39,233 nucleotides of DNA from a virus: IMG/VR virus record IMGVR_UViG_3300037459_000095, positions 1 through 39,233 of that record; one strand, given 5' to 3'. The notes under the pieces are model-generated. The model had not been told where the DNA came from. It made no database searches and saw nothing but the letters and a program-made list of their open reading frames with translations. Shown here one piece after another: positions 1-39,233 of the stretch; the first letter of the stretch is position 1; each line of letters opens with the position of its first letter. The translations under genes and the position numbers were made by a program.

Positions 1-127
1 AAGCTAAAATTGTTGAACTTGAAGCAAAGATAGCATCCAATGTGCCGCCATTACGAGAGCCAAAACTTGAAGACCCTGACATTGATTTTGATGAAGATAA
101 ATTAATCCAAGCCAAAATTGATTACAA
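1..127. repeat. Left copy of 127-bp contig-end overlap
   Basis: Bases 1-127 are identical to 39107-39233. The scaffold reading frame continues across the join without a break. This shows that the molecule is circular, or circularly permuted, with a unit length of 39,106 bp. The length equals a common assembler k-mer, so it is probably an assembly overlap rather than a packaged direct terminal repeat. Confidence 0.97.
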
Positions 128-23317: not shown

Positions 23318-23495
23318 CCTAATAAGCACTATAGAGAACGCAGAAACAAGGCAGCACGAAAGAGCGCTCGCCATCGCTATGCGTGATAAGAACCTACCAG
23401 AAGAAGAGGTTCAAGCCGAGGCAGAGCTACAAGGCATAGACTATAACCATGTCGTACTTGAGCGCAGCAAATTATTTGAGGATGAAATAAGATGA
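23310..23495 (+). CDS. Small helical hypothetical protein (61 aa)
   Basis: ATG 23310 (after AAGGAACAAG, overlapping the previous stop) is chosen over the upstream in-frame TTG 23280. The product is helical and charged (ISTIENAETRQHERALAIAMRDKNLPEEEVQAEAELQG). It overlaps the ERF gene by 4 nt, so it is part of the recombination operon. Confidence 0.5.
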   Translation: MNSLISTIENAETRQHERALAIAMRDKNLPEEEVQAEAELQGIDYNHVVLERSKLFEDEIR

Positions 23496-24196
23496 AAGAA
23501 TTAACAACAACAAACGAAAGCGCAATATTAAGTATTATCGAGAAAGTTGCACTAGATCCCAATGTCAATACTGAAAAAATGCAGCAAATTATTGATATGC
23601 AAATGCAGATACATGATAAGAATGCGCAGATTGAATACAATAAGTCAATGGTTCAATGTCAAAGTAAAATGCCTAAAGTAGTAACAAATAAGGTCAATAA
23701 ACAAACAAGTAGCACATATGCTGATTTATCTACAGTGTTAGTGACTGTGAAGCCTGTTTATACCAAATATGGGTTTGCTTTATCTTTTGGCAATAAAAAA
23801 GCAGAGAAGGCGGATCATGTCTGTGTTACCTGCGAAGTAATGCACAAAAGCGGCTATACAAAATATCATGAAGTTGAATGGCCTATTGATGATAAAGGCA
23901 TCCAAGGAAAAACCAATAAGACGCCGATACATGGCATGGCATCAACCAACAGTTATGCTCAAAGGTATTTAACTTGCAGGATTTTTAATATAGCGGTTGG
24001 CGATCATGATAATGATGGGAATGGGTGTGACTCTCCTACACTAACAGAAAGCCAAGTTTGTGACCTTCATGCGCTAATTATTGAAGTTGGCGCAGACGAA
24101 GACAAGTTTTGCAAATACATGAACGTCTCTTCTCTTAGCGAAATCCTTAACGAAAACTACCAAAGAGCTGTTAAGGTCGTGGAGTCAAAACGATGA
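23492..24196 (+). CDS. erf: ERF-family single-strand annealing protein
   Basis: The protein has 234 residues. Residues 25-140 hold the ERF core: IIDMQMQIHDKNAQIEYNKSMVQCQSKMP (helix), TSSTYADLSTVLVTVKPVYTKYGFALSF (the YADL and YGFALSF signatures), then VTCEVMHKSGYTKYHEVEWPID and GMASTNSYAQRYLTCRIFNI (the SYAQRYL signature). ERF anneals complementary single strands, circularising or concatenating phage DNA. It works with the exonuclease encoded next, whose start overlaps its stop by 4 nt. The C-terminal 50 residues are a variable helical domain. Confidence 0.93.
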   Translation: MKELTTTNESAILSIIEKVALDPNVNTEKMQQIIDMQMQIHDKNAQIEYNKSMVQCQSKMPKVVTNKVNKQTSSTYADLSTVLVTVKPVYTKYGFALSFGNKKAEKADHVCVTCEVMHKSGYTKYHEVEWPIDDKGIQGKTNKTPIHGMASTNSYAQRYLTCRIFNIAVGDHDNDGNGCDSPTLTESQVCDLHALIIEVGADEDKFCKYMNVSSLSEILNENYQRAVKVVESKR

Positions 24197-24798
24197 TCAT
24201 TTTAGACGTCGAGCAGGGGTCGGATGAATGGTTTCAAGCTCGCGTAGGGCTACCAAGCGCATCTAATTTTGGAAAGATAATCGCTCCAACTGGCAAGAAA
24301 TCAACTCAGTACAAAGCCTATATGAACGCTCTTATCGCAGAAGTCATGATGGGCCGTAAGATGAACACCTATCAATCATATGATATGACGGCGGCCATAG
24401 AGCTAGAACCAGAGGCTAGGAAATATTACGAATTCAAAACAGATGCAGAAGTTACTCAAGTCGGATTGGTTTATATGGATGAATCAAAAACCGTCTCTTG
24501 TAGCCCTGATGGCTTAATGGAAAGGAGAGGGCTTGAAATAAAATGTCCTAATCCAAATACACAAATTGAATATTTAAGAGCTAATAAACTTCCTGGAAAA
24601 TACATTCCTCAAATTCAAGGTTCTATGTTGGTTACTGGTTTAATAGAATGGGATTTTTTAAGCTACCATCCAGAATTACAACAATTATTAATCACGGTCG
24701 AATCAGACACGGCGTATCAAGCAAAGATGAAGGTCTATTTAGATGAGTTTGTCACTGAAATGAAAGAAGCGATCAATCAAATAAAAGGGATAAAATAA
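24193..24798 (+). CDS. YqaJ/lambda-exonuclease-type recombination nuclease
   Basis: The protein has 201 residues. It opens VEQGSDEWFQARVGLPSASNFGKII (the QGSxEWxxxRxGxxTAS signature) and carries the PD-(D/E)XK site as C-S-P-D106-G-L ... G-L-E115-I-K117-C-P. Usual family length is about 200-230. It resects double-strand ends to give 3' tails for ERF. It overlaps ERF by 4 nt and the coiled-coil gene by one base, so the three form one recombination operon. Confidence 0.93.
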   Translation: MIILDVEQGSDEWFQARVGLPSASNFGKIIAPTGKKSTQYKAYMNALIAEVMMGRKMNTYQSYDMTAAIELEPEARKYYEFKTDAEVTQVGLVYMDESKTVSCSPDGLMERRGLEIKCPNPNTQIEYLRANKLPGKYIPQIQGSMLVTGLIEWDFLSYHPELQQLLITVESDTAYQAKMKVYLDEFVTEMKEAINQIKGIK

Positions 24799-31658: not shown

Positions 31659-31693
31659 AATAAGGTGATATATTCACTAGAGGTTTATTTAAA

Positions 31694-31824
31694 CACTAAA
31701 CACTAAAGACTCTAGAATTGGGAGGATTAAGAAACTCACTTACCAGACCGGTATAAAAGGAAAATACACCTAGAACCAATTGAGCTACTGGAGATTCCCA
31801 AACACATAAACCCTAAACCCTAAA
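31694..31824. repeat. Two tandem heptamer pairs, CACTAAA x2 and CCCTAAA x2
   Basis: CACTAAA is tandemly doubled at 31694-31707, and CCCTAAA at 31811-31824. The shared consensus is C(A/C)CTAAA. AATTGG (31716-31721) pairs with CCAATT (31776-31781) between them. The repeats lie in the 233-nt gap before the second virion-like gene set and could be protein-binding iterons of an origin or regulator. The gap otherwise holds only the promoter next to 31892. Confidence 0.45.
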
Positions 31825-31835
31825 CCATTAGCTGA

Positions 31836-31891: not shown

Positions 31892-32527
31892 ATGGCTCTC
31901 GATACTCCAGTATTATTAGACGCACCCTCAGATGCCCTAGGATCGTCTGTTGTTAGTGCAACAATCAATATTCCAGACGGAGCAGCCTGTTTAGTATTTA
32001 TCTTCAACCGTAACACTGGGGTTTCTAATGTCTGCTCCGATAGTTCTGGTTTAACTTGGACTCAATTATTCGCATCGAGTGACCAACGGATCAGGGTTTT
32101 TACATCGACGGGAGACTCTGGAAGCGGATCAACTGTCGTCACAGTCACAAAAACCGGTCCATGTATTTGTCATATTATTAATATTGGTAACGCCTCGCTT
32201 ACGCCTGTTCAAACGAAAGAAATTGTATCAGTTGGCGGGGCTAATAAAACGCTGACTTTTGACAGCTCAATCACAACGGGTAATGCGTTTGTAGGTTATT
32301 TAGGGCATACAGTAGTAAGAACCACCACATCAGATAACAATGAGTTATCAAATGTCACTCTTGCTAGTTCGGCCACTTCCGCTTCTGAGTTCGATACAAC
32401 GGGTTCAACATTATCTTGGACTCATTCGGGAGCGACTTCCGCAGCATTTGGGCTTGAGATAGAAGAGGCCGGCGGCCCTACATTTCAAGCTGCATGGGCA
32501 AGTAATAGTAATAGGATAATACAATGA
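31892..32527 (+). CDS. Beta-rich virion-like protein (211 aa)
   Basis: The protein is Ser/Thr/Gly/Ala-rich and all-beta, with an N-terminal strand pattern (VVSATINIPDGAACLVFIFNRNTG) and the end GPTFQAAWASNSNRIIQ. The C-terminal AWASNSNRII is a short tail motif I know from phage structural proteins. AGGAG precedes the ATG. It overlaps the repeat protein by 4 nt, so the two are translated together. It is probably a fibre or appendage protein added to the P22-like virion; this is inferred. Confidence 0.55.
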   Translation: MALDTPVLLDAPSDALGSSVVSATINIPDGAACLVFIFNRNTGVSNVCSDSSGLTWTQLFASSDQRIRVFTSTGDSGSGSTVVTVTKTGPCICHIINIGNASLTPVQTKEIVSVGGANKTLTFDSSITTGNAFVGYLGHTVVRTTTSDNNELSNVTLASSATSASEFDTTGSTLSWTHSGATSAAFGLEIEEAGGPTFQAAWASNSNRIIQ

Positions 32528-33465
32528 AAAAGAATGTAGCCAGCCAGTCAATTGGCGCTCAGATGATAACAGCTGCTGACGGTACAGCCTTTACAGGCAC
32601 GGTGACGGTTCTAATTACTATTGATAATGGTACTCAATCGGCATCCGGCGGGACAGCTCCAGCACATGAGGGTAATGGATACCATAGCTATACACCAACA
32701 CAAGCAGAAACAAACGGCGACCATTTAGCCTTTACCTGGACCGGCACAGGCGCTATACCCGTAACCATTCAGATGTTCACTCAATTCCCGCAGACGGTAG
32801 ATAACGATACAAAAATATCACTTATCCCAACAACCGCAATGAGAGGTACTGACAACGCTGCTTTAGCTAGTGTGTGTACTGAAACTAGACTACAAGCATT
32901 AACTGACTGGTTAAATGGCGGCAGGTTAGATTTATTATTGGATGCCATACCAACAACGGCTATGCGTGGCACCGATAGCGCAGCACTCGCGAGCGTCTGT
33001 ACGGAGACTAGATTGCAAGCACTTACAGATTGGCTCAATGGCGGCAGACTTGACCTGTTGCTTGATGCAATTCCCACAACTGCAATGCGTGGCACAGACT
33101 CAGCAGCATTAGCGAGCGTTTGTACAGAAACGCGCTTACAGGCTCTCACTGACTGGCTAAACGGTGGAAGGTTAGACCTACTCCTTGACGCTATCCCAAC
33201 TACCGCCATGAGAGGAACAGACAGCGCGCTACTAGCAGTTAACCAAGTCACAGTATCCGATATACTAACCACTCAAATGACAGAGGCATACGCAGCAAAT
33301 GGAGTTGCACCGTCAATGGCGCAATCACTATTTGCAATTCATCAAATGTTGATGGAATTCTCTATTGCTGGAACATCGTACACAGTTAAAAAATTAGACA
33401 GTGCAGCTACAGCATTTGTCGTAACGTTAAATGATGCGACAAATCCAACGGGCAGCACAAGATGA
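32524..33465 (+). CDS. Virion-like protein with 41-residue tandem repeats (313 aa)
   Basis: Residues 1-100 are a beta-sandwich-like domain (DGTAFTGTVTVLITIDNGTQSASGG, YHSYTPTQAETNGDHLAFTWTGTG) as found in phage baseplate and appendage proteins. Residues 101-223 are three copies of a 41-residue unit (IPTTAMRGTD ... DLLLDA), and 224-238 a partial fourth. The C-terminal 75 residues (ILTTQMTEAYAANGVAPSMAQSLFAIHQMLMEFSIAG) are a conserved tail with a helical and a beta part. The repeats probably form a rod that sets spacing between the two ends. The DNA of the repeats is strongly diverged at silent positions. Confidence 0.65.
   Translation: MKKNVASQSIGAQMITAADGTAFTGTVTVLITIDNGTQSASGGTAPAHEGNGYHSYTPTQAETNGDHLAFTWTGTGAIPVTIQMFTQFPQTVDNDTKISLIPTTAMRGTDNAALASVCTETRLQALTDWLNGGRLDLLLDAIPTTAMRGTDSAALASVCTETRLQALTDWLNGGRLDLLLDAIPTTAMRGTDSAALASVCTETRLQALTDWLNGGRLDLLLDAIPTTAMRGTDSALLAVNQVTVSDILTTQMTEAYAANGVAPSMAQSLFAIHQMLMEFSIAGTSYTVKKLDSAATAFVVTLNDATNPTGSTR
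32824..33237 (+). repeat. 123-bp coding tandem repeat, protein-identical but codon-scrambled
   Basis: Copies are at 32824-32946, 32947-33069 and 33070-33192, with a partial copy at 33193-33237. Copies 2 and 3 encode identical 41 residues but differ at 29 of 41 codons, all silently. Copy 1 differs from copy 2 by one residue (Asn/Ser) and about 27 silent codons. The longest shared exact runs are about 11 nt by eye. Confidence 0.95.
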
Positions 33466-33704
33466 GTATCGCGCTGATAGTAACAAGAGGCTATGGTAAT
33501 GGTACTTTAGTTGGCACAATAAAAGATATTGTTTTACGTGGTTATGATATATCAACTGTCATACCGCCAACAGTCCCAATAGCTACCGGGTTAGTTGGCA
33601 TTCAATCTACTGGTAACGGCATCACTAGCAATCAATCGACCGGAAATGGTATAATAGGCAAACAGTCTGCAGGAAACGGTGTTATAGGAAGCGGGAGCCT
33701 TTAA
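33462..33704 (+). CDS. Small virion-like protein with QSTGNG repeats (80 aa)
   Basis: The first 28 residues (ALIVTRGYGNGTLVGTIKDIVLRGY) form a motif I have seen in short phage structural proteins (VTRGYGNGT ... VLRGY). The last 38 contain QSTGNG, QSTGNG and QSAGNG separated by 5-7 residues (with GI-GI-GV turns), a short beta-turn repeat. The three repeats again use different codons for the same residues. It overlaps both neighbours. Confidence 0.55.
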   Translation: MSIALIVTRGYGNGTLVGTIKDIVLRGYDISTVIPPTVPIATGLVGIQSTGNGITSNQSTGNGIIGKQSAGNGVIGSGSL

Positions 33705-34018
33705 TGGGTAGCTTAAATTTTAAAGAGGTTGGTCAGCCGATCAGGATTGATTTTAATGAAGATATCAGCCTGGCAACACCAACGCTCGTTTTAGAGCCCC
33801 AGCTTGGAGTAAAAAAAGACATTACAGACGGCGTAACCATCCCTAACACAACGATTATTGTAGGCAGTCAAACCCTAACCGCCAACGAATATATGGAGTA
33901 TTTCACCAAAGAAGAGGATTTGGATTACGTGGGGCAATGGCGATTTAAAGGCGAGTTAAACTTTAGCTCAACCGACATTAGACAATCTGATTACGAAAGA
34001 TTCACTGTAAAAGCATAA
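33704..34018 (+). CDS. Beta-rich virion-like protein (104 aa)
   Basis: It is an all-beta protein (IRIDFNEDISLATPTLVLEPQ, TIIVGSQTLTANEYMEYFTKEEDLDYVGQWRFKGELNF), in the style of the N-terminal BppU-like domains that attach phage appendages. It overlaps the upstream gene by one base. It probably completes the appendage made by the 31892-33704 genes. Confidence 0.55.
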   Translation: MGSLNFKEVGQPIRIDFNEDISLATPTLVLEPQLGVKKDITDGVTIPNTTIIVGSQTLTANEYMEYFTKEEDLDYVGQWRFKGELNFSSTDIRQSDYERFTVKA

Positions 34019-38865: not shown

Positions 38866-39233
38866 ATGACAGACGAACTAGCTGAACAGGTTGAATCAGG
38901 TATTACCTTCGATGAAGAAGTCGACAACGCAATATCTAATGATGCTACAGAGGAGTCAGCACCTCAAGAGGACGAGAGTCCAGCGGCTGAAATGCCCGAA
39001 GAAATAGCTAGTGAGGCCGAAGGACAGTTATCCGAAAGGGCTCAGAAGCGTTTTAATAAGGTTACGTTTGACAAGCACGAGCAAGCTCGTAGGGCAGACA
39101 CAGCAGAAGCTAAAATTGTTGAACTTGAAGCAAAGATAGCATCCAATGTGCCGCCATTACGAGAGCCAAAACTTGAAGACCCTGACATTGATTTTGATGA
39201 AGATAAATTAATCCAAGCCAAAATTGATTACAA
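38866..39233 (+). CDS. Phage scaffolding protein, N-terminal part (continues at base 3 of window)
   Basis: ATG 38866 follows AAAGGGCG. The frame runs to the window end and continues through the circular join to 557, giving 265 residues. The N-terminal part is very acidic (TDELAEQVESGITFDEEVDNAIS, SAPQEDESPAAEMPEEIASEAEG), then helical (SERAQKRFNKVTFDKHEQARRADTAEAKIVELEAK). Acidic N-terminus, coiled coil and basic tail together match a scaffold. The upstream 70-nt gap has no clear promoter. Confidence 0.85.
   Translation, partial: MTDELAEQVESGITFDEEVDNAISNDATEESAPQEDESPAAEMPEEIASEAEGQLSERAQKRFNKVTFDKHEQARRADTAEAKIVELEAKIASNVPPLREPKLEDPDIDFDEDKLIQAKIDY
39107..39233. repeat. Right copy of 127-bp contig-end overlap
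   Basis: This stretch is identical to bases 1-127 and lies inside the scaffold gene. It should be removed once when the genome is circularised. Confidence 0.97.

Follow-up and report, generated by a model that had tools for sequence, protein, structure and literature searches.

A modular repeat gene and its genomic setting

The DNA analysed here is a viral sequence of 39,233 nt (the window, meaning this whole stretch). Upstream of its terminase and portal genes lies a gene encoding a modular protein, in which an N-terminal domain is followed by three full copies of a 41-residue module (123 nt per copy), the start of a fourth, and a C-terminal domain (Table 1). The module protein reads IPTTAMRGTD(N/S)AALASVCTETRLQALTDWLNGGRLDLLLDA. 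As the earlier note on this DNA had claimed, the phage also encodes an ERF protein and an exonuclease, which are adjacent to one another at 23492-24798. Tandem 7-nt repeats, TAAACAC and TAAACCC, occur at 31690-31711 and 31807-31826, just upstream of the gene cluster. One scaffold-like peptide (VELEAKIASNVPPLREPKLEDPDIDFDEDKLIQAKIDY) is encoded at both ends of the window (1-125 and 39110-39233), suggesting that the genome, of about 39.1 kb, is circular or has terminal redundancy.

Table 1. Features of the window (L-numbers, here and in the text, denote loci of relatives in viral contigs).
Feature	Coordinates	Strand	Remarks
ERF single-strand annealing protein	23492..24196	+	PF04404, E=7e-16; phrog_155
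YqaJ-family exonuclease	24193..24798	+	PF09588, E=1.6e-23
Modular repeat protein gene, 313 residues	32524..33465	+	open frame; relatives in 44 viral contigs
N-terminal domain, residues 1-100, MKKNVASQ type	32524..32823	+	conserved in L001, L002, L010-L013; beta strands in model, pLDDT about 60-74 over residues 11-80
Module copy 1, 41 residues	32824..32946	+	Asn at position 11
Module copy 2, 41 residues	32947..33069	+	
Module copy 3, 41 residues	33070..33192	+	protein identical to copy 2
Partial fourth copy, 15 residues (IPTTAMRGTDSALLA)	33193..33237	+	start of module repeated
C-terminal domain	33226..33465	+	common to relatives with different arrays and N-termini; 62-68% identity in L003, L004, L006; 79 viral loci
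First gene downstream of repeat gene	33462..33706	+	syntenic in L003, 46% identity
Second gene downstream of repeat gene	33704..34018	+	syntenic in L003, 47% identity

For the repeat protein, nothing in Pfam scored above the cut-off, and searches of PHROGs and of PDB sequences returned no informative match. The AlphaFold model is poor (pLDDT 54, pTM 0.26) and shows, at low confidence, an N-terminus of beta strands, helical repeats and a small C-terminal domain of mixed type; a PDB fold search with this model gave no significant match, the best being weak ones to immunoglobulin domains. The module probably forms a structural repeat of helices linked by the PTTAMRGTD turn, and, judged by its architecture and position, the protein is likely to be virion-associated and fibre-like.

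Silent sites are saturated between copies of one protein

The earlier note described copies 2 and 3 as identical in protein but different at 29 of 41 codons, and copies 1 and 2 as differing at about 27 silent codons and one residue. A recount returned exactly these figures, with 28 silent differences and one residue between copies 1 and 3. Copy pairs have 71% nucleotide identity, their longest exact run is 9-11 nt, and the reported switches between codon families of Leu, Arg and Ser are real, numbering five to eight per pair. Under independent draws of each codon from the codon usage of this phage, a pair should share 12.3-12.5 of 38-39 codons, and 10-11 are seen; sharing is therefore at about the random-draw count, and the description of the silent sites as near saturated was right. 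The dN/dS comparison among copies that the note had proposed was run by simple counting, but it is uninformative, since pS (0.91-0.97) lies beyond saturation and multi-step Leu, Arg and Ser paths give false nonsynonymous counts. It is the conservation of the protein, rather than the silent divergence, that exceeds chance.

The module is conserved across uncultured phages

Relatives of the repeat protein were found in 44 viral contigs, and none among INPHARED phage records (50,697 at E 1e-5). The module is present in other uncultured phages. The relatives have N-termini that are similar or different, middle modules that are different, and a similar C-terminus. L003, L004 and L006 carry the 41-residue module itself, and its codons are scrambled there as well. 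The window and L003 have the same gene order downstream of the repeat gene, and protein identity between the two is 97% in the modules (97-100%), compared with 68% in the C-terminal domain, 55% in the coat, 51% in the portal and 46-47% in the neighbouring genes. Purifying selection on a repeat protein is seen here in unusually clean form, the module surpassing the phage's portal and coat in conservation while its codons are essentially random.

The same pattern is seen in shorter motifs. Counted over the loci from the genome scan and the first six viral scans, IPTTAMRGTD has 116 occurrences and 110 DNA encodings. The 21-mer NGGRLDLLLDAIPTTAMRGTD occurs 24 times in 24 encodings. Because loci were found by peptide patterns, the conservation of short motifs is partly a product of how loci were chosen; DNA encodings played no part in that choice. 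Module-to-module comparison between phages showed that copies are scrambled there too, with a faint copy-by-copy match (P about 0.01) that suggests duplications older than the split of these phages.

Two relatives have features of their own. L006 (3287-4417) joins the shared modules and C-terminus to an unrelated N-terminal domain, and every copy of its module has Asp in place of Asn at position 31, despite scrambled codons. L390 (1995-3032) has two 41-residue copies equal at 41 of 41 residues, with 11 of 47 codons shared across the repeat, and its unit is private, the best match in another phage being 28/41.

Arrays recombine and probably differ in age

The single full copy in L004 (74-196) corresponds to copy 2 of L003 (92-336) up to codon 28 and to copy 3 from codon 30, with four codons excepted, and the chimera junction falls inside five shared bases, TGGCT. 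Unequal recombination between scrambled copies therefore occurs; L415/L423 may be a second chimera. Across 87 tandem pairs, the fraction of shared codons spans 0.17 to 1.0 continuously, the spread expected for duplications of different ages. Arrays with similar DNA do exist. The earlier note had counted DNA-identical repeats in ERF-carrying phages as evidence against its explanation, and in one ERF phage, L342, the array is partly similar in DNA, with 53% shared codons.

Origin of the scrambled copies

These data are consistent with old tandem duplications of a strongly constrained module, saturation of its silent sites with age, and changes of array size by unequal recombination, which we regard as the probable history of the array. 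The array would have been born by tandem duplication long ago, after which very strong purifying selection on each 41-residue module would have held the copies to one protein while their silent sites drifted to saturation. DNA-level concerted evolution between copies would have been absent, and unequal recombination between them would have shifted the size of the array.

The earlier note proposed instead that ERF and the exonuclease delete exact repeats. Under such selection against DNA identity, long shared runs would be removed by this pair of proteins or by other annealing, and the surviving arrays would be enriched for silent mismatches. We consider this rather unlikely as the explanation of the scrambling, although some of the data point towards it. 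Within the arrays of the window, L003 and L006, codon sharing is below random (mean z -0.91, P=0.0045), whereas pairs of the 41-residue module taken from different phages share slightly more codons than random (z +0.44), a contrast reached in 0 of 4000 simulations, and exact-match runs in this group are short (P=0.011, 0.003 and 0.023); these tests were post hoc, derived from the same data and uncorrected for relatedness. The longest runs of the window, taken alone, are no shorter than chance expectation, and a conditional test that permutes codons among equal residues within an array is weaker than the independent-draw test, giving P=0.027 for the window, 0.009 for L003 and 0.29 for L006. With the same permutation, Stouffer z was -0.68 and 0.49 over all saturated pairs in the first two sets, and -2.8 and -2.3 in the 41-residue group. 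An initial 20 saturated pairs hinted at a family-wide deficit (pooled z -3.43), but two later sets did not reproduce it (-0.03 and +0.58), and 43 other saturated tandem pairs likewise had no deficit (z -0.81), which argues against a general effect. The within-array deficit is a hint restricted to one group, that of the 41-residue module, in which drift alone does not predict sharing below random. Private scrambled units of the L390 type are also hard to attribute to age alone, unless their relatives are unsampled.

The distribution of recombinases is similarly divided. Among the 44 contigs, ERF was found in two, RecT in three and YqaJ in four; AAA_24, a family that includes Sak4-like annealing partners, was found in 6 of 24 contigs, Sak, Rad52 and RecA in 0 of 24, and 13 further contigs had none of ERF, RecT and YqaJ. 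Codon sharing averaged 0.33 in six contigs that carry ERF, RecT or YqaJ and 0.52 in the remaining 31 (two-sided P=0.015, or 0.042 without the window). The recombinase-bearing contigs thus had the more scrambled arrays, which favours the earlier proposal, in a comparison that was small, again post hoc and uncorrected for relatedness. However, scrambled arrays are also present on contigs of 44-46 kb in which no ERF, RecT, YqaJ, Sak, Rad52, RecA or AAA_24 was detected, indicating that ERF is not needed for scrambling, and the continuum of array ages also speaks against selection. The L004 chimera cuts both ways, as deletion between copies does happen but scrambling failed to stop recombination. 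Of the earlier proposal, the fixed protein and the saturated silent sites are shown, and the cause that it put forward has weak and mixed support. We see a modest chance that such selection contributes on top of the ageing of silent sites. We also find it doubtful that, in the presence of annealing recombinases, needed direct repeats survive only with scrambled DNA, their silent divergence being driven beyond random by selection or by the loss of matching copies. If true, recombinase-driven scrambling would be a natural counterpart of deliberate codon scrambling. The array lends itself, as a natural experiment, to asking whether repeats are made to diverge at silent sites by recombination.

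A further rival, which the earlier note had set against its own explanation, is assembly of the array from separately evolved modules of different phages. The region is indeed modular, with similar N-termini joined to different arrays and, in L006, a different N-terminal domain joined to shared modules, but in a comparison with all loci none of the window's copies had a close relative in DNA, codon sharing reaching about 0.42-0.46 at best, and we judge this origin improbable. A separate question is why DNA-identical copies are rare. There is about an even chance that their rarity is a sampling effect, short-read assembly collapsing or breaking on exact repeats: of 76 arrays, 17 are no more than 500 nt from the end of a contig, against an expected 4.7, and the L003 and L004 contigs start inside their arrays. 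DNA-identical arrays are therefore probably missing from the data, and their rarity here is no evidence of selection, but such an effect covers missing young arrays only, and neither the protein conservation of old arrays nor the real sequence of the window. Shaping of the silent sites by an overlapping antisense gene is very improbable. A 163-residue minus-strand frame does cross the array (32781-33272), with similar frames in L003, L050, L058 and L060, but silent sites of the sense strand look random and the antisense copies differ from one another while the sense copies are identical. We dropped the idea because the antisense copies are not conserved; the frame is probably a by-product of residue composition.

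Comparison with known repeat systems

The closest known pattern is that of polyubiquitin, which one account describes as head-to-tail, near-invariant units with many synonymous differences and with unequal crossing-over altering repeat number, and for which it presents concerted versus birth-and-death evolution as debated (PMC10457151, citing Nei et al. 2000). The phage array likewise combines a near-invariant unit (copies 2 and 3 identical; 97% between the window and L003), high synonymous divergence within one gene (10-11 of 38-39 codons shared) and gain or loss of copies by unequal recombination (the L004 chimera, and copies of all ages in relatives). In Plasmodium, according to the same account, polyubiquitin repeats of one locus generally resemble one another much more closely than repeats of different species do (PMC10457151). 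Unlike these, phage copies are no more alike within one phage than between phages, and in the 41-residue group they are less alike (mean z -0.91 versus +0.44), which rejects concerted evolution and places the array on the birth-and-death side. The module is not ubiquitin, which has the ubiquitin fold and a C-terminal Gly-Gly; its sequence is different, its repeats are predicted, with low confidence, to be mainly helical, and it has no known maturation into monomers.

In synthetic repeat genes, designed codon scrambling of one protein repeat avoids exact DNA repeats. Scrambling in the phage, unlike that of designed genes, is at the level of drift, with a weak sign of more. We found no report of scrambled protein repeats in phages in open-access papers, and the repeat-protein family appears to be common, and without annotation, in uncultured phages. 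We do not claim membership of the fibre or tail proteins, given the absence of a family or fold match (Pfam, PHROG, PDB sequence and fold, the last with a poor model). Nevertheless, as in modular phage fibre and tail proteins, an N-terminal domain, variable repeats and a C-terminal domain are combined and modules are exchanged between phages; unlike in those proteins, conservation of the repeat module far exceeds that of the portal and coat of the phage.
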